Shown here: positions 181 through 57,210 of the stretch, one piece after another
Layout: each line of letters begins with the position of its first letter
Numbering within the stretch: the stretch's first letter is position 1
From: a virus
IMG/VR virus record: IMGVR_UViG_3300020578_000008
Coordinates: 1-64,000 of that record
Length of the DNA stretch: 64,000 bases
Direction: 5' to 3' (one strand)
Notes under the pieces: generated by a model
Seen by the model: only the letters and a program-made list of their open reading frames with translations
Database searches by the model: none
Told to the model about the DNA's origin: nothing
Made by a program: the position numbers and the translations under genes

Positions 181-301
181 GCGTATCGATAGCAAGGGTC
201 ATGAGGAGATTTGGGAATGGGAAGAAACACCTGAACTCAAGGCATTTATCAAAGGTCAGACAATCACAAAACTGTCCACACCCCCCGCTCGTCCTAAATA
301 A
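161..301 (+). CDS. Small WEW-motif phage protein
   Basis: A 46-residue ORF starting inside the end of the previous gene (20-base overlap). Its core, WEW.ETPEL.A.I, recurs in the 50-residue ORF at 35035-35187, so the two are paralogs; a conserved core in two separate places supports both as real. C-terminus is proline-rich (TPPARPK). Function unknown; no recognised domain. Confidence 0.7.
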   Translation: MTKKSFKRIDSKGHEEIWEWEETPELKAFIKGQTITKLSTPPARPK

Positions 302-30707: not shown

Positions 30708-31084
30708 TAGCTAGGGATTTTGTAGAATTTATTATTGAATGGACTGAAGCATTAAATAAAACTTTAATGGTTATCAGAACAACAGGACCAGATAGTGCTA
30801 CTGATGTTGAAAAAGTAAATCACATTTATTCTGTTTATAAATCAAATTTTGAATCAGATCGAGTTGATTTCTTTAATAAATTTTTGTATAATGAATTTAC
30901 TTTCTTAGAATTTGATTCCGAAGAAGAAGCATATGACTTTGGAATTCAAAATTTTCCAATGAATAAAAATGGAGATATGGATTTCTTTGTTCAGTTTTTT
31001 ATATTCAGTAATGGCAATTTAGCTTATGCTAACGATTCATTATCTGGATTGTCTGACAGAATACCACCACCACGAACCAGTTGA
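30704..31084 (+). CDS. Hypothetical protein paired with fibre chaperone
   Basis: 126 residues, acidic, with a helical N-terminus (IIEWTEALNKTLMVI) and a C-terminal tail ending RIPPPRTS. ATGA overlap with the upstream chaperone-like gene suggests coupled expression. Followed by a terminator. Function unknown. Confidence 0.75.
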   Translation: MIARDFVEFIIEWTEALNKTLMVIRTTGPDSATDVEKVNHIYSVYKSNFESDRVDFFNKFLYNEFTFLEFDSEEEAYDFGIQNFPMNKNGDMDFFVQFFIFSNGNLAYANDSLSGLSDRIPPPRTS

Positions 31085-31090
31085 ATAATT

Positions 31091-31131
31091 GGCATAAGGG
31101 TCTTGACAGACCCCTTTTTTTATGCCATACT
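31091..31131 (+). promoter_or_regulatory. Combined terminator and promoter, -35 box in the hairpin loop
   Basis: AAGGGTC (31096-31102), loop TTGACA, GACCC (31109-31113), then a 7-base T run: a rho-independent terminator. The loop is itself a perfect -35 box; 17 bases later is CATACT (31126-31131) with the extended TGC. GGCATA and TATGCC flank the whole. So it ends the fibre transcript and starts the helicase cassette. Confidence 0.8.
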
Positions 31132-41263: not shown

Positions 41264-41800
41264 ATGGCGGTTAATTATCAAAAAGCATGGGATGCCATGA
41301 ATGAACTTGAGATTTGTATCACTAAAGTTAATTCTGCTCGTGAAATTCTTGATGTAGCATCAGAAACTCTTGCTACACATAAATTTGATAAAACAGAGCA
41401 TTTGATTGATGCTGCTTATGAATTTCTTGGATTTTTTGTTGCTGAATTTGATTCTAAGTTCAGCAAAGCATGGCAGGCAACTGTAGTTGCTGCTCATGAA
41501 GATTACGAAGAACCTAAAACAATTAAGTATACTGATGAAGAACTTAATGCCATGTGTGATGCTGCTGAAGAAAAACACTCAGCATATTATTATGATTACA
41601 CACGTAATGATCCAAACAAACCTAACCCTTTTACTGCTGATTTAACAATTGGTGGTGACGGTACACTTGTTCTTCCTGATGAAGTAATGAGTAAATTGAA
41701 TATCAATCTTGGTGATTACATTCAGTGGACACCACTGGATGATAATACAATTCGTTTAGATAAAGTTGACAACGTTTCTATTGTACAAAAAATAGAATGA
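41264..41800 (+). CDS. AbrB/MazE-like protein with helical N-terminus
   Basis: 178 residues from the ATG at 41264, preceded by GGAG; the TTG at 41258 is less likely. Residues 1-110 are helical. Residues about 130-172 (LTIGGDGTLVLPDEVMSKLN, then GDYIQW, IRLDKV) match an AbrB/SpoVT swapped-hairpin fold, a DNA-binding domain of transition-state regulators and antitoxins. May be a phage regulator. Overlaps the next gene by ATGA. Confidence 0.65.
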   Translation: MAVNYQKAWDAMNELEICITKVNSAREILDVASETLATHKFDKTEHLIDAAYEFLGFFVAEFDSKFSKAWQATVVAAHEDYEEPKTIKYTDEELNAMCDAAEEKHSAYYYDYTRNDPNKPNPFTADLTIGGDGTLVLPDEVMSKLNINLGDYIQWTPLDDNTIRLDKVDNVSIVQKIE

Positions 41801-43382: not shown

Positions 43383-44435
43383 ATGGCTGTATCAAGAGCA
43401 GTATATAGAGGAGGAATAACACCAGGGGGCAGTCAGGTATTTAATTCTCCTGGTACTTGGGTTGCTCCGCCTAAAATTGTAAATGTCTCTGCTTCTGGTA
43501 GGGGCGCAGTTGGTCAGCCTGGCGGCACAGGTAATGGTGGCAACCCTGGATTCAGAGGGCAGAGGGGCAATGGTGGTGTTGGTACAGCAGGAAATGCCAG
43601 TCATGGTGGCGGTGGCGGCGGTGGTGGAAATGCTGTGCCATTTCCTGTTAGAGCAAACCCTGGAAACAATGGGGGCGTCAGCGGTGGTGGCGGCGGGGCT
43701 CGAGGAAATCGCCCAGGGTTCCCTGGGCAAAGGGGCGGAAGTGGAAGTGCTGGTTCTGCTGGAACTAAAGGATCAGCCCCGCCTGGAAATAACGCCATCG
43801 CGCCAGGGGGAGGTGGTGGTGGTAACACAGGAGGGCAAGGACAGACGGGAGCAGCATCAATATTTGCTGGGTTAAATTTCCCTGGTGGTCCTGGCGGTAA
43901 TGGTGGAAAAGGAAATAATGGAGCAGCTGGAAATCCTGGAAATCCTGGTACTGCTGGTACTGCTGGTAATGGTAATCCTGGTGGAAACGGTGGAGGTGGT
44001 GGCACTGGTGGTAGCAACAGTGGCGGATTAAGACCTGGCGGTGGTGGCGGACAGCAAGGTGGCAATAATGGCCAGGCTGCTGCTGGTTCTGGAGGCGGCG
44101 GTGGCGGGTCTGGTGGAACTGGCGGCGCGCCAGGTAGAAATGGTGGTAATGGAGGATCTGGTGGTAATGCTAACCCTCCAAATCGCCCAGGTAGCCGAAG
44201 AGGTGGCGGCGGCGGTGGCGGCGGCGGGCGTGGAAATCCTGGAAACCAAGGAGCTACTGGAGGACAGGGAAATAATGGTAATCCTGGAGCTGCTGGAAAT
44301 CCTGTTGCTGGTAATCCTGGAAACCCAGCAAATACAACAATATACAATTCAATAACAGTTACCCCAGGGCAATCATATCCCGTAACTGTCAATAACCCTG
44401 GCGGATCTGTAACTGTTTCTTGGAATCCACAATAA
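43383..44435 (+). CDS. Poly-glycine adhesin-like protein
   Basis: 350 residues. N-terminus (VSRAVYRGGITPGGSQVFNS) and C-terminus (ITVTPGQSYPVTVNNPGGSV) are short beta caps; between is about 270 residues of Gly/Asn/Pro repeats (GNPGGNGG, GGGGGG, GAAGNPG). This is the composition of poly-glycine-II sandwich adhesins such as gp38 of T-even-like phage S16, at the fibre tip. Fibre-tip function is inferred. Confidence 0.7.
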   Translation: MAVSRAVYRGGITPGGSQVFNSPGTWVAPPKIVNVSASGRGAVGQPGGTGNGGNPGFRGQRGNGGVGTAGNASHGGGGGGGGNAVPFPVRANPGNNGGVSGGGGGARGNRPGFPGQRGGSGSAGSAGTKGSAPPGNNAIAPGGGGGGNTGGQGQTGAASIFAGLNFPGGPGGNGGKGNNGAAGNPGNPGTAGTAGNGNPGGNGGGGGTGGSNSGGLRPGGGGGQQGGNNGQAAAGSGGGGGGSGGTGGAPGRNGGNGGSGGNANPPNRPGSRRGGGGGGGGGRGNPGNQGATGGQGNNGNPGAAGNPVAGNPGNPANTTIYNSITVTPGQSYPVTVNNPGGSVTVSWNPQ

Positions 44436-44438
44436 ATA
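44431..44438 (+). promoter_or_regulatory. Late promoter
   Basis: AATAAATA at the end of the adhesin gene, 24 bases before the gene at 44463. Confidence 0.5.
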
Positions 44439-44462
44439 AATTTGAAGTTATAATTTCATACA

Positions 44463-44885
44463 ATGGCTAAAAGAGAAATTTCTGAAACAAGAAAAAAAAT
44501 TCGAGAAATATATGAACAAAATGAACTAGATGGTCTTGAAGCAAATAAAACTAGAGCAAGAGCTTTTAGTGTTGGTACGTGTGGTGGTGGATTAATTGAA
44601 GTTACTTTACGAGGAGATATTGGATTTTTATGGTATCAATTAGATGCCGTAGAAACTGTTGAGATTATACAACAGTTAGCTGCTGGTTGTGGTTTAGATA
44701 TAGCTTTGAGACCTAAAAATGATTTTGCTACTTGGAGATCTTGGGACGAAACATTACCAGGAGCTATTCATTGGGTTGGTGCAGCACCATGGCAAATGTC
44801 TGATGAGCAGAGAGAAGAAATAGCTGCTTTAAGAGCAAAAAATTTAAAATTGCTAAAACAACAAGAAGAACCAGCGGGCGAATAA
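44463..44885 (+). CDS. Hypothetical protein in fibre region
   Basis: 140 residues; charged N-terminal helix (RKKIREIYEQNELD), central CGGGLIEVTLRGDIGFLWY beta region, C-terminal acidic helix. Driven by a late-type box, so probably virion-associated or assembly; no recognised domain. Confidence 0.7.
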   Translation: MAKREISETRKKIREIYEQNELDGLEANKTRARAFSVGTCGGGLIEVTLRGDIGFLWYQLDAVETVEIIQQLAAGCGLDIALRPKNDFATWRSWDETLPGAIHWVGAAPWQMSDEQREEIAALRAKNLKLLKQQEEPAGE

Positions 44886-46930: not shown

Positions 46931-47140
46931 ATGTCACAAACGAGATCTCAACAAACAGATCTTACCGAAGAAGAATGGAAAGAATTAGTCGCCCTTAAAA
47001 ATCAAATAAATCAAAATCCAGCAGCAGTACATCCAGAAAAAATGGAGTTATTTACTGAATTGTTAGTTAGATCTTGGAATGCCAAATGTGATCCGCCTGA
47101 TACTTCTACATGGAGAACTGGTCATCCGCTGGATGAATGA
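46931..47140 (+). CDS. Small acidic helical protein
   Basis: 69 residues from ATG at 46931, preceded by GGAG. Helical (LTEEEWKELVALKNQIN), C-terminal part WRTGHPLDE. Unknown. Confidence 0.65.
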   Translation: MSQTRSQQTDLTEEEWKELVALKNQINQNPAAVHPEKMELFTELLVRSWNAKCDPPDTSTWRTGHPLDE

Positions 47141-47165
47141 AACAGTTTAACAACTGGCACACACT

Positions 47166-47196
47166 ACCGCCACATGGCGGTTTTTTAATCTATACT
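47166..47196 (+). terminator. Terminator overlapping a promoter
   Basis: ACCGCC / GGCGGT stem with ACAT loop and a T6 run (47181-47186) ends the upstream genes; TATACT at 47191-47196 follows at once and may start the next transcript (ATG at 47219). The hairpin loop lies close to the -35 position. Confidence 0.7.
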
Positions 47197-47676: not shown

Positions 47677-47872
47677 AGATTCTGTACGTCTAAATGTCCA
47701 TGAGATTGGTATTCTTCTCTCAGCACTACAACAAGTAGATCTGAGAGAGGAAGTTCAAATTGCCAGACAATATGGCAGTGTGGCAGCACTGTATAACAAA
47801 CTATACAGTGTTTGGGAACAGATGGACACTTCCCAAACTGTCCTACAGAACGACGTAGTGCCGTCCTTCTGA
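47669..47872 (+). CDS. Small helical protein
   Basis: 67 residues from ATG at 47669, beginning before the previous stop. Helical (EIGILLSALQQVDLREEVQI), acidic. Unknown. Confidence 0.65.
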   Translation: MTEDSVRLNVHEIGILLSALQQVDLREEVQIARQYGSVAALYNKLYSVWEQMDTSQTVLQNDVVPSF

Positions 47873-47905
47873 CCCTATAATATCAAAGTATTCAACAGAA
47901 CTCCA

Positions 47906-49696: not shown

Positions 49697-49869
49697 TGTT
49701 AAACGATAAATTTGATAATATGAATAATTTTGTCCTTGATCAAGTTGATAATCTCATGGATTGCTATGATAATCCTGTAGTCCGTGAGCGTATCCTACGT
49801 GAGGCGGAAGATCAATTGTTTGAGGACAGTTTTGAAACTGTCCCCTGGGACCTCCTAGAGGACTTCTAA
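49693..49869 (+). CDS. Small acidic protein
   Basis: 58 residues, acidic, ending VPWDLLEDF. ATGA overlap upstream. Its 3' end contains a strong inverted repeat, GGACAGT/ACTGTCC (49824-49843), which may also act in the RNA. Confidence 0.65.
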   Translation: MMLNDKFDNMNNFVLDQVDNLMDCYDNPVVRERILREAEDQLFEDSFETVPWDLLEDF

Positions 49870-49874
49870 ACCTC

Positions 49875-49880
49875 TATACT
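49875..49880 (+). promoter_or_regulatory. Possible -10 box
   Basis: TATACT followed by AACTACATACCAAACAACC, like the boxes and purine-poor leaders of the 54.7-56.8 kb array. 25 bases before the gene at 49906; no -35 box. Confidence 0.4.
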
Positions 49881-52722: not shown

Positions 52723-52781
52723 ATAGCATCAAATATCCCCTCGGTGGTATCACCCTAGGACAGTTTAAGAAGTGGCACAGA

Positions 52782-52814
52782 AGACCTCCCAGGGGTGTCT
52801 GGTGGTGATATATT
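52782..52814 (+). promoter_or_regulatory. Hairpin-associated promoter
   Basis: AGACC / GGTGTCT hairpin (imperfect) over the -35 position, then TATATT (52809-52814) with extended TGA, preceded by an AAGTGGCACA block. 24 bases before the TTG start at 52839. Confidence 0.5.
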
Positions 52815-52838: not shown

Positions 52839-53015
52839 TTGAAAGACATTCGAATTCAAGTTGAAACTTTCGACGGTTGTATCACTATTTGGTACGAACG
52901 TTCTAAGTTAAAGAATGCCTGTGATGTTATCTCCAAACGTGTATACAATCAGCTGTGTGGTTTGAATATTAAAGAGATCGACGTGAGCGTTATCGGTGAT
53001 CCTGTGACAGTCTGA
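52839..53015 (+). CDS. Small hypothetical protein (TTG start)
   Basis: 58 residues. The only possible upstream start is TTG at 52839, because an in-frame stop precedes it; AGGA is upstream. DIRIQVETFDGCITIWYE then a helix; ends VSVIGDPVTV. Unknown. Confidence 0.6.
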   Translation: MKDIRIQVETFDGCITIWYERSKLKNACDVISKRVYNQLCGLNIKEIDVSVIGDPVTV

Positions 53016-53027
53016 CAAGTGTCCACA

Positions 53028-53061
53028 GGGCATTGACTTCGCCCCCAACCCATGCCATACT
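53028..53061 (+). promoter_or_regulatory. Promoter with -35 in a hairpin loop
   Basis: GGGC (53028-53031) / GCCC (53041-53044) enclose TTGACT (53033-53038); 17 bases later is CATACT (53056-53061) with extended TGC. Drives 53088. Confidence 0.7.
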
Positions 53062-53087: not shown

Positions 53088-53414
53088 ATGAGAAAGATCG
53101 AACGTCTGATGAACGCTGCCATCACCGAGCAACGTGACTGGAAACTTGATAACACTGAAGTTGTCACTATTGATGGTGTCAGTTCTGTATTTCTTCACGG
53201 CAATTGTATTGCTGAGGTTGGTGATACTTTTGTCCGACTGTTTGATGGTGGTTGGCAATCCAATACCACCAAATCTCGTCTCAATGCTATCCTTCGGGAG
53301 CATGGTCGTGATGGTGAGTGTGTGTTTCAAAAGCAGTGGCATTGGTTCATTAATCTGAACACTGACCGAGGTATTGAAACTGTGCCTTTCCGTTCTTCTA
53401 TGAAACTTGCTTGA
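53088..53414 (+). CDS. Conserved phage protein, unknown
   Basis: 108 residues; RKIERLMNAAI, then TEVVTIDGVSSVFLHGNCIA and FINLNTDRG. This MRKIE...LHGN.IA pattern is familiar from small cyanophage proteins. Mixed alpha/beta, soluble. Confidence 0.78.
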   Translation: MRKIERLMNAAITEQRDWKLDNTEVVTIDGVSSVFLHGNCIAEVGDTFVRLFDGGWQSNTTKSRLNAILREHGRDGECVFQKQWHWFINLNTDRGIETVPFRSSMKLA

Positions 53415-53861: not shown

Positions 53862-53875
53862 TATTAATGTGCCAG

Positions 53876-53926
53876 ATCAACAAGTGTCCACTGATTCCCC
53901 CATTGGTCACTTGTTGATGCCATACT
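53876..53926 (+). promoter_or_regulatory. Promoter with an 11-bp hairpin
   Basis: ATCAACAAGTG (53876-53886) pairs with CACTTGTTGAT (53908-53918); CATACT (53921-53926) with TGC follows, putting the -35 position in the loop, where the sequence is CCCCAT, not a -35 consensus. 22 bases before 53948. Confidence 0.55.
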
Positions 53927-53947: not shown

Positions 53948-54073
53948 ATGCCTGACTTCTACACATTCACTGGTGACGGTATTACCATTCTTGGTTTGGT
54001 TGGTATTATCTCAACTGGTATCATTGTTGCCACAGCGTTCACTCGTTATTTCAATTCACCCCTGAGAAAGTGA
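53948..54073 (+). CDS. Small membrane protein
   Basis: 41 residues; one hydrophobic helix (ILGLVGIISTGIIVATAF) then a basic tail. Likely single-pass membrane peptide. TGATG overlap with the next gene. Confidence 0.6.
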   Translation: MPDFYTFTGDGITILGLVGIISTGIIVATAFTRYFNSPLRK

Positions 54074-54453: not shown

Positions 54454-54702
54454 ATGACCAACAACGCTTACACTTGGACTGACAACTTCTCCGAACTTTG
54501 TGAGAAGTATGCTGAACATGTGATGGACAGCATGGACATGAAGACGATGGAACAATTCGTCTTCGATACACTTTACGAGTGCTATTCTGCCTATGATGAA
54601 GAACAGTTGATCAATGAGATTCGTGAGTTGTATGGTGACGAAGTGCTGGAAGATTTTGGCATTGAACTTAAAGAAGGTCCAGATGATGTGACAGTTGACT
54701 AA
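54454..54702 (+). CDS. Hypothetical acidic helical protein
   Basis: 82 residues; helical, Glu/Asp-rich (FSELCEKYAEHVMDSM, MKTMEQFVFDTLYECY). No recognised domain. Ends just before the hairpin promoter at 54711. Confidence 0.7.
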   Translation: MTNNAYTWTDNFSELCEKYAEHVMDSMDMKTMEQFVFDTLYECYSAYDEEQLINEIRELYGDEVLEDFGIELKEGPDDVTVD

Positions 54703-54710
54703 GTGGTACA

Positions 54711-54746
54711 CAGGGGGTTGAAATGCCCCCTGATCGATGCCATACT
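54711..54746 (+). promoter_or_regulatory. Promoter with -35 in hairpin loop
   Basis: CAGGGGG (54711-54717) / CCCCCTG (54726-54732) with TTGAAA as the loop start, 17 bases, then CATACT (54741-54746) with extended TGC. Preceded by AAGTGGTACA. Drives 54770. Confidence 0.75.
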
Positions 54747-54769
54747 AACCACATCAACCACAAACACAG

Positions 54770-54943
54770 ATGTACTACAACCGCTACGACATGCTGACCG
54801 CCTTTACCACTGACGAGATGGCAGTGCTCTATGATCTGGTCTGCTCCCATCAGGGCTGCCAGATCCTCCCCGACTGGATGGATCAAAAGGTCTTCGACAG
54901 TGTACAGGAAAAAGTCAGCGACGCCTACCATGAGACCACATGA
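54770..54943 (+). CDS. Small acidic protein (GC-rich array 1)
   Basis: 57 residues; YYNRYDMLTAFTTDEMAVLY, Cys pair, helical end. GC-rich codons unlike the genes before 54.7 kb. The leader is ACATCAACCACAAACACAG, without a Shine-Dalgarno site. Overlaps the next gene by 4 bases. Confidence 0.65.
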   Translation: MYYNRYDMLTAFTTDEMAVLYDLVCSHQGCQILPDWMDQKVFDSVQEKVSDAYHETT

Positions 54944-55050
54944 ATCACTACCTTGCCGCCGCTCTCCTGATGATCGTCGCCATCGGTTTCCCCATGATGT
55001 GTGCCGCCTTGGGCATGAAGGTCAACACCCGCAACGGATGGTGGGACTGA
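54940..55050 (+). CDS. Small membrane peptide
   Basis: 36 residues; hydrophobic helix (LAAALLMIVAIGFPMMCAAL), then RNGWWD. ATGA overlap with the previous gene. Confidence 0.5.
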   Translation: MNHYLAAALLMIVAIGFPMMCAALGMKVNTRNGWWD

Positions 55051-55071
55051 CCACCTGACTAAGTGGCACAA

Positions 55072-55106
55072 GGGGTCACAGTGACCCCATCCTGACCCTG
55101 TAGACT
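55072..55106 (+). promoter_or_regulatory. Hairpin-associated -10 box
   Basis: GGGGTCA / TGACCCC (7 bp, loop CAG 55079-55081), with the -35 position at the loop, then TAGACT (55101-55106). AAGTGGCACA precedes it. No -35 consensus, so the promoter is weak or needs an activator. Confidence 0.45.
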
Positions 55107-55112
55107 GACAGC

Positions 55113-55301
55113 ATGAACAACCTTAACCCCTCACTGATGGAACGCCGCTTCACCGTCTACGTTCCGTCTGACCCCTGGGAATCCATCGACTGCCAGACCT
55201 GGGCAGAGGCGCAGCGCCTGCTCGCCATCAAAGCAGACGAGTTCGTCTACGCTGAGATTCGGAAGGATGGGGTGATCCTTGACGATCTCCAGATCCTGTG
55301 A
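55113..55301 (+). CDS. Small hypothetical protein (GC-rich array)
   Basis: 62 residues; RRFTVYVPSDPWESIDCQTW, then a helix. GC-rich. TAGACT box upstream. Unknown. Confidence 0.65.
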   Translation: MNNLNPSLMERRFTVYVPSDPWESIDCQTWAEAQRLLAIKADEFVYAEIRKDGVILDDLQIL

Positions 55302-55349
55302 CAGTAGAGGCACTGTCCACCAACTACCCCAAACCCCATCAGGGGCTGC

Positions 55350-55355
55350 CATACT
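55350..55355 (+). promoter_or_regulatory. -10 box with shared leader
   Basis: CATACT with extended TGC, preceded by CCCCATCAGGGG, and followed by CATCAACCAAACGAACC before the ATG at 55384. No -35 consensus. Confidence 0.45.
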
Positions 55356-55383
55356 AAGAGCATCAACCAAACGAACCAAACCT

Positions 55384-55581
55384 ATGTGGGATGAGATCCA
55401 AGACATGCCTGGCGAGATCTACGACGTGAACCCCTACGTCGCTCAGATCCTCTCCCAAGGCAAAGAGCCCAGCAAGGCACCCGCCCCCACGGCGACCTAC
55501 CCTCGGGAAATCCACGGTCGAGTCTACCAGACCGAGGCAGAATACCGTGAGGACCTCCATGACTTTCTGAACGGTATGTGA
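55384..55581 (+). CDS. Small hypothetical protein (GC-rich array)
   Basis: 65 residues from ATG at 55384, the first after the leader. Pro-rich middle (EPSKAPAPTATYPREIHG), acidic helix at the end. Unknown. Confidence 0.65.
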   Translation: MWDEIQDMPGEIYDVNPYVAQILSQGKEPSKAPAPTATYPREIHGRVYQTEAEYREDLHDFLNGM

Positions 55582-55629
55582 CAGTGTAGGGGGTGTCCAC
55601 AGATGCCCCCAAACCCCACCAGGGGCTGC

Positions 55630-55635
55630 CATACT
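55630..55635 (+). promoter_or_regulatory. -10 box with shared leader
   Basis: CATACT with TGC; the 28 bases before it nearly repeat those at 55322-55349 (CCCCAAACCCCACCAGGGG). A GGGGG/CCCCC stem lies upstream. Leader CATCAACCAAACCAAACC before 55660. Confidence 0.45.
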
Positions 55636-55659
55636 ATCAGCATCAACCAAACCAAACCA

Positions 55660-55833
55660 ATGAAGATCGAAGTTCGTTACCAGACCCCCTACAGCAGCCA
55701 GGAGTGGCGGTCACAGTGGTTCCCCACGCTGGCAGAGGCTGAGCGGATGGTGGACTTCTACCGCTCCTGTGGATCACCCGCCCATGTGGCACCTAGCAGT
55801 CTGGCACAGTTCGAGCACCTCGGGCGCTCCTGA
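55660..55833 (+). CDS. Small hypothetical protein (GC-rich array)
   Basis: 57 residues; KIEVRYQTPYSSQEWRSQWF, then a helix. Start chosen at the ATG that ends the shared leader. Unknown. Confidence 0.62.
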   Translation: MKIEVRYQTPYSSQEWRSQWFPTLAEAERMVDFYRSCGSPAHVAPSSLAQFEHLGRS

Positions 55834-55838
55834 CCCTG

Positions 55839-55844
55839 TAGACT
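55839..55844 (+). promoter_or_regulatory. -10 box with shared leader
   Basis: TAGACT after CCTGACCCTG, then AACCACATCAACCAAACGAC and the ATG at 55872. The same CCTGACCCTG-TAGACT occurs before 55113 and 56579. Confidence 0.4.
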
Positions 55845-55871
55845 AACCACATCAACCAAACGACTCAAACC

Positions 55872-56093
55872 ATGACGACCTACAACGGATGGGCAAACTG
55901 GGAGACCTGGAACGTCGCCCTGTGGATTCAGAACGATGAGCGGACCTACAACCTCGCTCAAAAGTTCACCCGCTACAACGCTCTCATTCCCCACCTTGAG
56001 ATGCTGTGGGGGCAGATGACCCCAGACGGTGCCCGTTGGATGGACGCTAAGATCGACACCGACGAACTGGACGAGATGCTGGACGATTTCTGA
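55872..56093 (+). CDS. GW.N.ETWNVALW phage protein
   Basis: 73 residues; YNGWANWETWNVALWIQNDE near the start is a block shared by many phage proteins of unknown function (probably DUF7249). Acidic C-terminus (TDELDEMLDDF). GC-rich array, shared leader upstream. Confidence 0.75.
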   Translation: MTTYNGWANWETWNVALWIQNDERTYNLAQKFTRYNALIPHLEMLWGQMTPDGARWMDAKIDTDELDEMLDDF

Positions 56094-56103
56094 ACTGTCC
56101 ACA

Positions 56104-56138
56104 GGGGGGCGCCTTCCCCCCTCCCCCGCCTCTATACT
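56104..56138 (+). promoter_or_regulatory. Hairpin-associated promoter
   Basis: GGGGGG / CCCCCC with loop CGCCTT (56110-56115) at the -35 position, then TATACT (56133-56138) and the leader AAACACATCAACCAAACGA before 56166. Confidence 0.5.
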
Positions 56139-56165
56139 AAACACATCAACCAAACGAACCAGACC

Positions 56166-56342
56166 ATGCTCAAGACTCTCGCCATCCTCGCCCTCGGCGC
56201 CGCCTTCTATGCCCCCATCGCTACCGTGGGTGCTGCTGCCATCGACTTCGCTGCTGACACCGTTCAGGCAGTCAACCAACAGACCGCCGCCCGCTGTGCC
56301 ACCTACAACAGTGTCCTCCCTGGCGCCTGTGAGATGCCCTGA
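56166..56342 (+). CDS. Small secreted-like protein
   Basis: 58 residues; hydrophobic, Ala-rich N-terminus (LKTLAILALGAAFYAPIATV) like a signal peptide or membrane anchor, then AADTVQAVNQQTAARC and a Cys pair, which could form a disulfide outside the cytoplasm. GC-rich array. Confidence 0.6.
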   Translation: MLKTLAILALGAAFYAPIATVGAAAIDFAADTVQAVNQQTAARCATYNSVLPGACEMP

Positions 56343-56347
56343 GCGTC

Positions 56348-56353
56348 TAGACT
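56348..56353 (+). promoter_or_regulatory. -10 box with shared leader
   Basis: TAGACT then AACCACATCAACCAAACGAC, before the ATG at 56381. Confidence 0.4.
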
Positions 56354-56380
56354 AACCACATCAACCAAACGACTTCAACC

Positions 56381-56536
56381 ATGGCAACCACTTCCTTCGC
56401 TTACGGCAACTCCTACTCCCAGTCCGACCGCTTCTATGAGGACTGTGAGCACGACGACCTGATGGACGCCGACGATTACGATGCCCGCCGCTTCCAGCGT
56501 GACGGTTGGGAAAGCGCCTGCTGGGATGGTCGCTGA
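56381..56536 (+). CDS. Small acidic protein (GC-rich array)
   Basis: 51 residues; ATTSFAYGNSYSQSDRFYED, then DDLMDADDYDARRFQRDGWE. Acidic, Tyr-rich. Unknown. Confidence 0.55.
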   Translation: MATTSFAYGNSYSQSDRFYEDCEHDDLMDADDYDARRFQRDGWESACWDGR

Positions 56537-56549
56537 CCCCCTGACCCTG

Positions 56550-56555
56550 TAGACT
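56550..56555 (+). promoter_or_regulatory. -10 box with variant leader
   Basis: CCTGACCCTG then TAGACT, leader AACCACACACACACAGACACC and the ATG at 56579. Confidence 0.4.
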
Positions 56556-56578
56556 AACCACACACACACAGACACCAC

Positions 56579-56779
56579 ATGAATTTCGCAACCGCCACCC
56601 CCGAGCAACTCACCGCCGCTGGGTTCAAGTTCAAGACCGTCCGCCCCCGCCGCCCACGTAAGGGTGAGTTGATCTGTGAGATGGTCAAGTTCAGCACCAA
56701 GCGAGGCAGTCAGCAGTGGCGAGATCGTGCTCACATCGCCTCTCCCAGCGCCTACGCTGTTGTGATGGGCAACGGTTGA
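56579..56779 (+). CDS. Small basic protein (GC-rich array)
   Basis: 66 residues; FKTVRPRRPRKGELICEMVK and FSTKRGSQQWRDR are strongly basic, suggesting nucleic-acid binding. Last gene of the GC-rich array; the DNA changes abruptly to AT-rich after about 56.87 kb. Confidence 0.65.
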   Translation: MNFATATPEQLTAAGFKFKTVRPRRPRKGELICEMVKFSTKRGSQQWRDRAHIASPSAYAVVMGNG

Positions 56780-56894
56780 TCCTAGCACACCCCCAGGGGG
56801 GGCAGTGGTTTGCCCCCGCCCCCTAGGTGGGCGGCGCGCCGAGCGGGTCCCATATTTGACCCTCTCTAACCTACAAAAGTATCCAGACGACCGA

Positions 56895-56902
56895 AATAAA
56901 TA
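56895..56902 (+). promoter_or_regulatory. Late promoter
   Basis: AATAAATA in the 180-base gap between the GC-rich array and the structural genes; the rest of the gap holds a GC-rich inverted-repeat-like stretch (56785-56860). Confidence 0.5.
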
Positions 56903-56928
56903 ACGATAGGATCCCTAATCCAAAAAAT

Positions 56929-56960
56929 TTCCGCCACAAAAAAATCACCCCAAAAGTCGC
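56929..56960 (+). promoter_or_regulatory. Conserved leader motif, copy 2
   Basis: TTCCGCCAC, A run, ATCACC, CAAAAGTCG: same blocks as 1385-1413, ending two bases before the ATG at 56962. No Shine-Dalgarno site is visible here. Confidence 0.45.
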
Positions 56961-56961
56961 C

Positions 56962-57210
56962 ATGAAACAGAAAGTAACTTATAAGACTTCAGATGGTACT
57001 CTAAAGGAACAATTCTTTGATAACTTCAATGAGTTTGCCGATAGCATGGAGTCCATTGCTGATCAATATTATACTGGGTTAAACGCCCCTCAAGTCAATG
57101 TAGACACCATCTACGATGATGGTCTCATTAAAAAGGAGAATGTAACAAATGTGGAATTACGAGATGGAGGAGCGCCTGAACTCCTTAACGAGATTGGTCA
57201 ACAGTTTTAA
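56962..57210 (+). CDS. Hypothetical late protein
   Basis: 82 residues; KQKVTYKTSDGTLKEQFFDN then a helix; acidic. Starts the late structural run. Overlaps the next gene by 62 bases. Confidence 0.65.
   Translation: MKQKVTYKTSDGTLKEQFFDNFNEFADSMESIADQYYTGLNAPQVNVDTIYDDGLIKKENVTNVELRDGGAPELLNEIGQQF

Follow-up and report, generated by a model that had tools for sequence, protein, structure and literature searches.

The window analysed here, i.e. the first 64 kb (64,000 nucleotides) of the virus record IMGVR_UViG_3300020578_000008 with a total length of 156,598 bases, contains an array of nine small open reading frames (ORFs) on the plus strand (54770-56779), in which a start module of palindrome, -10 box and short leader recurs from gene to gene. 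The ORFs 58548 and 58944 occupy the gp25 and gp6 positions of phage S-PM2 and appear similar by eye to their counterparts, also in the comparison with L005 (L numbers denote the loci of our comparisons). The region was matched by 244 phage records, all except one named Synechococcus, Prochlorococcus or Cyanophage, and the record also encodes Kyano_Gp96, clamp, clamp loader and RegA proteins. Judged from the gp25-gp6 order, the T4-like replication genes and the cyanophage-specific proteins, the virus is a T4-like cyanophage of the Kyanoviridae. The genes of the array, with lengths in amino acids (aa), are:

54770..54943, plus strand: W1, 57 aa, no known family; variant leader by eye
54940..55050, plus strand: W2, 36 aa, overlaps the W1 stop codon, no promoter of its own
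55113..55301, plus strand: W3, 62 aa, ATG 6 nt past the -10 box; apparently leaderless, or starting in the 55143 region
55384..55581, plus strand: W4, 65 aa, phrog_649
55660..55833, plus strand: W5, 57 aa, no known family
55872..56093, plus strand: W6, 73 aa, DUF7249 / phrog_871, found in relatives more often than any other island gene
56166..56342, plus strand: W7, 58 aa
56381..56536, plus strand: W8, 51 aa
56579..56779, plus strand: W9, 66 aa, ACACAC leader by eye

The predicted fold of W6 (DUF7249; predicted local distance difference test, pLDDT, 92.8) had no match in the PDB (best E 5). The array lies in a GC-rich block with a GC content of 0.56-0.60 over 55001-57000 (500-base windows) and flanks of about 0.28-0.42. 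The initial annotation had described a block richer in GC than all its surroundings and ending sharply; the contrast and the sharp 3' end near 56870-56900 were confirmed, whereas the 5' start is softer and a second GC peak exists elsewhere in the window. This peak at 43501-44500 (0.50-0.58; 0.578 for 43501-44000) shows a strong G skew and lies within a 350-aa ORF (43383-44435). With good confidence, the island can be read as an early-gene island of a Kyanoviridae phage that is built from start cassettes of about 100 bp. The parts of the cassette, their fixed spacing, the genome- and clade-wide use and the permuted order between phages are established at the level of sequence.

The central part of the cassette is a 22-bp palindrome, GTGNCAGTT-N4-AACTGNCAC, which precedes the -10 box by 29-30 nt. 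It emerged from a discovery set of 50 deduplicated promoters (90 rows before deduplication) that were picked by -10 box and leader alone, with chance rows kept; in this set the information content peaks at -53 to -30 relative to the -10 box and is near zero in the flanks. The columns are symmetric around one centre only (column symmetry 0.80, compared to 0.09 or less at 13 other centres; 126 deduplicated of 218 sites). At the same 126 sites no covariation between the arms was found, Watson-Crick pairing being at the level of independent columns with eleven permutation fractions of at least 0.30 each. Because the arms do not covary, the palindrome resembles a DNA operator rather than an RNA hairpin, and it looks like a putative operator centred near -54, when the first base of the -10 box is counted as -12. 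A TTGA at the -35 place occurs in 6 of 130 promoters in one set and in 20 of 199 in the set from palindrome loci (the latter among the matches listed). The single common mechanism that had been proposed for the array, post-transcriptional or at initiation, holds as a shared initiation module, but it is first of all transcriptional, and its key element had been overlooked, namely the palindrome, which lies ahead of the -10 box and is also present before genes outside the island.

For the prediction of operators, a 25-base position weight matrix (PWM) was built from 46 promoters, to which neither S-PM2 nor the genome of the window nor the nearly identical L092 contributed. A promoter was called at a PWM score of at least 15 together with a -10 box of at least 5/6 matching bases at 28-31 nt. 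With these settings, 16 promoters were found in the held-out own record and 14 in S-PM2, compared to none in ten block shuffles of each genome and none in the reversed sequences; when the -10 box was demanded at other 4-nt spans, the numbers dropped to 0-2 and 1-4, respectively. Lowering the score to 9 resulted in 25 promoters in the own record and 30 in S-PM2 (shuffles 0-4 and 2-7). The same spacing was obtained independently when viral contigs were searched for the exact palindrome without regard to -10 box or leader, which yielded at least 120 loci: among the matches listed, -10-like hexamers were found at 28, 29, 30 and 31 nt in 12, 42, 21 and 8 cases (83 on 253 flanks), with no other offset exceeding 8, and after deduplication in 9, 21, 11 and 6 cases (47 on 136 flanks), with at most 4 elsewhere. 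Likewise among the matches listed, a spacing of 29-30 was found in 171 of 199 promoters, in a selection that itself limited the spacing to 28-31, and Kyanoviridae-like proteins were encoded at 115 of 120 palindrome loci compared to 22 of 107 control loci. The latter came from a 14-base leader scan of viral contigs, which had returned mostly chance loci and was reused as control after removal of the island-bearing ones. The operators predicted within the array are:

54686..54710, plus strand: operator of W1, PWM 21.9; -10 box CATACT at 54741
55046..55070, plus strand: operator of W3, PWM 13.2; -10 box TAGACT at 55101
55296..55320, plus strand: operator of W4, PWM 24.0; -10 box CATACT at 55350; CCCC-ATCA-GGGG dyad in the spacer
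55576..55600, plus strand: operator of W5, PWM 21.6; -10 box CATACT at 55630; two GC hairpins in the gap
55784..55808, plus strand: operator of W6, inside the W5 coding sequence, PWM 14.5; -10 box TAGACT at 55839
56078..56102, plus strand: operator of W7, PWM 18.1; -10 box TATACT at 56133; GC hairpin in the spacer
56294..56318, plus strand: operator of W8, inside the W7 coding sequence, PWM 13.9; -10 box TAGACT at 56348
56497..56521, plus strand: operator of W9, inside the W8 coding sequence, PWM 15.8; -10 box TAGACT at 56550

Downstream of the -10 box, the ATG mostly follows after 21-28 nt. The leader CATCAACCAAACNA has five exact copies in the window, all of them in the array (55361, 55641, 55850, 56144, 56359), and 11 matches at up to two mismatches compared to 3.2 expected; its CGA form occurs four times in the whole record, always within the array. 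The initial annotation had placed this leader before most genes, which applies to five to seven of the nine, but not to W2, which overlaps the W1 stop codon, and not to the apparently leaderless W3. W3 and its relative in L072 share an ATG 6 nt after the -10 box and may both be leaderless, while the leaders of their neighbours measure 24 nt. Given the operator at a fixed place upstream of the -10 box, the leader would represent the short 5' end of these transcripts. The combined -10 and leader pattern TANACTNANCACATCAACNAAAC was found 31 times in viral contigs, distributed over 23 stretches, and is almost always followed by small genes; in L139 it is, by eye, not followed by a gene start. In the S-PM2 island the leader reads TTCAGTTCAAACGA; shared across phages are the leader length and, in islands, the richness in A and C. 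The 19-base pattern of -10 box and leader had no match in the cyanobacterial genomes of the genome collection; its two matches fall into non-cyanobacterial metagenome-assembled genomes of other phyla and appear chance-like (estimate about 2), and a host-derived leader was rejected. No leader or cis-regulatory RNA of Rfam was found above the gathering score (best E 0.098).

A Shine-Dalgarno (SD) word is indeed missing from all nine array genes, as had been noticed, but by the same rule only 8 of the 42 long ORFs in the window carry one, so that a loss peculiar to the array was rejected. The predicted folding energies from -25 to +35 at the array starts range from -1.0 to -6.2 kcal/mol (the W5 window being offset by one base), with means of -6.9 kcal/mol at 42 reference ORF starts and -14.4 kcal/mol in windows inside array genes. 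In other cyanobacteria, SD-independent genes show a weaker 5' structure according to the accessible part of PMC6847405, and the weak predicted folding at the array starts fits SD-independent initiation.

The cassettes are found before different genes in different phages. The suggestion of a shared regulatory piece that spreads by recombination is supported by the 23 viral-contig stretches, by a gene order that is permuted between relatives and by homology blocks that end in the modules. W5 precedes W6 in the window and follows it in L133 and L144, and W8 lies ahead of W6 in L132 and L137. Identities are mosaic as well (W4 98% and W5 89% in L144; W4 94% and W6 46% in L072). When alignment blocks of at least 100 nt were considered, leaving out L147, which nearly duplicates L146, the modules from operator to ATG, which make up 33% of the array, contained 23 of 29 block starts and 19 of 27 block ends (binomial p 4e-7 for starts and 8e-5 for ends, with blocks that are not fully independent). 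GC hairpins occur at five of the eight array junctions, and spacer dyads of at least 5 bp were found in 91 of the 199 promoters of palindrome loci (among the matches listed) compared to 23.9 in shuffled spacers. The array ends in the following element:

56780..56903, plus strand: 3' boundary with GC hairpins and a conserved CGAGCGGGTCCCAT core, then a late-promoter-like AATAAATA

Its near-invariant stretch CGAGCGGGTCCCAT ... AACCTACAAAAGTATCCAGACGACC has matches in 28 phage records and lies under no annotated gene. It probably combines an early terminator with a late promoter, a reading that would leave the long identity unexplained.

Outside the GC-rich part, operators were predicted at further positions of the window:

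53002..53026, plus strand: operator of the Kyano_Gp96 gene 53088-53414 (PF23790), PWM 23.2; -10 box at 53056
53867..53891, plus strand: operator of a 41-aa gene at 53948, PWM 19.7; -10 box at 53921
52755..52779, plus strand: operator, PWM 20.5; -10 box TATATT at 52809
49821..49845, plus strand: operator of gene 49906, PWM 17.1; -10 box TATACT at 49875
47821..47845, plus strand: operator of gene 47906, PWM 15.1; -10 box TATAAT at 47876
47137..47161, plus strand: operator of gene 47219, PWM 19.8; -10 box TATACT at 47191
31072..31096, plus strand: weak operator of the 412-aa gene 31157, PWM 10.4; -10 box CATACT; gene start compared by eye with helicase S-PM2p232
255..279, plus strand: operator before the tRNA cluster, PWM 15.8; -10 box TATAAT

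In S-PM2, where promoter positions were compared by eye with the annotation, the promoters precede p015, p029, p035, p039, p056, p068 (Kyano_Gp96), at least four island genes and the peptidase p119, as well as CobS (p120), p127 near gp62 and RegA, p164, gp32 (p199), the helicase p232 and p238. The promoter class is not island-specific, and several of its S-PM2 targets are replication genes. Matching operator promoters exist at position 136468 of our record (L160) and at 94828 of S-PM2, both at the end of a methyltransferase gene and before the p127/gp62/RegA genes. Several genes of the S-PM2 island (L148, 21480-24800) are unannotated, including a DUF7249-like gene, and the annotated ORFs p071 and p074 run in the opposite direction. 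Before psbA (S-PM2 135161, L163), there is a strong palindrome (score 20.4) whose spacing to its promoter is different. Furthermore, a common stretch like GGACTCGAAATTATCGTACCCTGTGG without an obvious start codon follows the operator promoters in L166, L192, L206, L233 and L255, and no other locus reached the 18 promoters of this class found in L259, all on the same strand within 14.9 kb.

The distribution among phages was surveyed with the pattern GTGNCAGTTNNNNAASTGNCAC, allowing up to two mismatches and summing both strands, and with the backward pattern as control. Matches were obtained in our record (6), S-PM2 (13), S-H9-2 (6), S-CAM4 (4), ACG-2014i (5), S-RIM4 (5), S-RSM4 (9), S-WAM2 (12) and Sf-CH1b (4) and none in S-B43, with a single control match over these ten records; Syn9 had 3 (control 1), P-SSM4 12 and P-SSM2 21. 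No match was found in T4, RB49 (control 1), S-TIM5, Syn5, Ma-LMM01 and P-SS2, and one in HTVC008M, a Pelagibacter phage filed in the Kyanoviridae. Altogether, 12 of the 13 records of cyanobacterial Kyanoviridae contain the operator, and the seven outgroup phages do not exceed the control level; according to these counts, it is a mark of the cyanobacterial T4-like phages tested and not of all phages of these hosts.

Regarding composition, the GC content at third codon positions (GC3) is 0.72-0.81 for eight small array ORFs (0.74 for W5) compared to 0.21 for the 42 pooled window ORFs of at least 110 aa. Among operator-driven genes it amounts to 0.72-0.78 in the GC-rich array of this phage, to a mean of 0.37-0.38 outside the GC-rich part in this phage and S-PM2, and, considering short loci only, to 0.36 (8 genes) and 0.29 (4 genes) in the Prochlorococcus phages P-SSM2 and P-SSM4. 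GC-rich islands with different gene sets (peaks 0.59-0.63) exist at the same place before the gp25/gp6 structural genes in S-PM2, S-H9-2 and L072.

In our working model, each cassette comprises the 22-bp operator near -54, a spacer of 29-30 nt in which a GC hairpin is often found, a -10 box that mostly lacks a -35 element, an A/C-rich leader of about 24 nt and the ATG. A dimeric protein would bind the palindrome and help the host RNA polymerase to start at promoters lacking a -35 element, while the spacer hairpin may terminate the transcript of the preceding gene. The A/C-rich leader would keep the start codon open in GC-rich messages, making an SD sequence unneeded, the repeated cassettes would allow the exchange of small genes by homologous recombination, and the high GC3 may reflect an adjustment of the array genes to the codons used by a Synechococcus host. 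Several observations weigh against parts of this model. The PWM training set includes rows that match by chance, 9 of its 46 having scores no higher than 1.4, and S-B43 had no pattern match although its modules look similar by eye. Conserved modules beside unrelated genes would likewise raise the counts of block boundaries inside modules. Moreover, three of the eight array junctions are without a hairpin, the operator being placed inside the preceding coding sequence and the stop codon only 5-13 nt from the -10 box, and the other promoter set contains spacer dyads in only 35 of 130 cases (17.9 in shuffled spacers), i.e. many cassettes are hairpin-free.

Other explanations for single parts of the island were weighed as well. 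The palindrome could act as an RNA hairpin, serving as terminator or mRNA stabiliser of the preceding gene without being part of a promoter; it often follows a stop codon and is adjoined by GC hairpins. However, the missing arm covariation, on which this candidate was rejected, a distance to the -10 box that peaks at 28-31 even without selection for spacing, and the constant place of the palindrome inside coding sequence at three array junctions make it very unlikely. For the leader, a role mainly as target of a translational regulator such as the phage RegA, shutting off all array genes together, is conceivable because a RegA-type protein (PF01818) is encoded in the record and five genes have almost the same leader; we consider it unlikely, since the leader word varies between phages (e.g., TTCAGTTCAAACGA in S-PM2) while length and A/C richness stay. 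The recent gain from a high-GC, Synechococcus-like source proposed by the initial annotation agrees with the sharp GC step and the GC3 contrast, but it is not sustained by the islands with similar GC and different gene sets at the same place in S-PM2, S-H9-2 and L072 and by the lack of the -10 and leader pattern in the cyanobacterial genomes of the collection, and such an import now appears highly improbable. The GC content of the island may instead reflect a long-lived tuning to GC-rich hosts.

For the protein that would bind the palindrome, two proposals differ from each other, and both are compatible with the cassette model. The binder could be phage-encoded, tentatively the AbrB/MazE-like protein phrog_661 (S-PM2p006; 55-67 aa), which would replace the absent MotA/AsiA system. 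Clear phrog_661 hits (E 7e-8 or better, alignment A4) were obtained in 10 of 12 records with at least three operator matches and in none of eight records with zero or one match (S-B43, T4, RB49, HTVC008M, S-TIM5, Syn5, Ma-LMM01, P-SS2); a weak hit in S-TIM5 (1e-4) was gone with alignment A4. By sequence, phrog_661 has the swapped-hairpin domain of this kind of DNA-binding protein: of 13 members in the alignment, 9 matched the Pfam family MazE_antitoxin (PF04014) with E values up to 0.1 (26.7 for the first member versus a cut-off of 24.7). Six PDB profile matches (E 0.09-0.84) comprise AbrB-type proteins and the archaeal C56, and the top Foldseek hits of the structural model are SpoVT and MazE (E 0.45-0.55). 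The model predicts the order strand-helix-strand-strand, which we take to be that of the AbrB/MazE family. A class promoter was found upstream and on the same strand in 21 of 30 phrog_661-like ORFs, at a distance of 145 nt to 3.5 kb except in the window itself, which gives no clear sign of a tight autoregulation. On the other hand, S-H9-2 has six operator matches and no phrog_661 hit, only weak hits exist in S-B43 (E 0.001) and in our own, possibly incomplete record (E 0.006), co-occurrence is weak evidence because the records share ancestry, and the model has a pLDDT of 77 without a fold match at E 0.001. The only candidate binder found in our record is:

41264..41800, plus strand: 178-aa protein with a weak MazE/AbrB-like segment at aa 128-168 (Pfam E 0.005, below cut-off; A4 E 0.006)

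When 91 small proteins from our record were compared with Pfam in three alignments, no other clear transcription factor emerged. The 'DNA binding protein' phrog_624 was rejected as binder, being absent from S-PM2 and Syn9 and present in HTVC008M and S-TIM5. Alternatively, a host activator may bind the palindrome, and the phage would rely on the regulation of its host from the very onset of infection. Transcription of early genes has to begin when no phage protein is present yet, and the accessible text of PMC10976474 reports that host PhoB binds some S-PM2 promoters. Nevertheless, this proposal is likewise only a possibility, since the operator was not seen in S-TIM5, Syn5 and P-SS2, cyanophages of the same or similar hosts, an absence that argues against a host factor, yet it occurs in Synechococcus phages as well as in Prochlorococcus phages. 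An AbrB-like phage protein is a plausible candidate for the palindrome binder. The most far-reaching version, to which we give a limited chance, is a clade-wide regulon in which a phage AbrB-like dimer on GTGNCAGTT-N4-AACTGNCAC near -54 would turn on the -35-less promoters of replication genes and swappable host-takeover genes, with the start cassettes doubling as recombination sites.

Related arrangements are known from other phages. In T4-type coliphages, PeSL (promoter early stem-loop) cassettes combine a repeated early promoter with a stem-loop between small genes of plastic regions and are tied to gene shuffling (as cited in the accessible text of PMC4503421). The cyanophage cassettes resemble them in the many copies within a plastic region with shuffled genes, but differ in the fixed-distance 22-bp operator, the usual lack of a -35 element, the shared A/C-rich leader and a hairpin that lies inside the promoter spacer and is not always present. 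Regarding sequence kinship, the comparison covered the operator pattern, for which RB49 and T4 had no match. The MotA/AsiA-dependent middle promoters of T4 also have a -10 box without a -35 element, an upstream box and replication genes as targets, and could represent a functional counterpart. The MotA box is centred near -30, compared to the palindrome near -54 here. Cyanomyoviruses are without motA and asiA, according to the part of PMC2984593 available, in which this review (Clokie 2010) also calls their early and middle control unclear and cites a 'putative promoter of middle transcription' of Syn9 and P-SSM4 that could be related. The sigma-70-like early promoters described for S-PM2 and Syn9 probably include some of the same promoters, recognised by their -10 box, and the accessible text does not mention the palindrome. 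The phage Mu promoter Pm with its activator Mor likewise has an inverted-repeat dimer site upstream of a sigma-70 promoter, but as a 16-bp element centred at -43.5 and unrelated to our site (PMC4390567, accessible part). The 'ORFanage' of S-PM2 resembles our array in tiny orphan genes of shuffled order in a cyanophage (PMC4503421, as far as accessible), but lies at another place (5.8-15.3 kb of S-PM2); in the same part of that report PeSL-type shuffling was judged unlikely for it (Puxty 2015).

The palindrome was not described in the literature searched, a search to which several key papers including the original genome papers did not belong. The accessible texts describe psbA motifs (Puxty 2018, PMC5931967) and PhoB sites (Rihtman 2024, PMC10976474) without mentioning the palindrome, and in that of Sullivan 2010 (PMC3037559) promoters were predicted with standard tools. 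With a defined operator, a list of targets and a candidate binder, early and middle transcription free of MotA/AsiA becomes directly testable. The operator rule also finds tiny early genes that were missed or put on the wrong strand by annotation, as in S-PM2. Moreover, the cassettes would offer a mechanism by which very abundant viruses rapidly replace their small genes, and the module together with the permuted gene orders points to a way in which these viruses may switch on and swap their early-infection genes.

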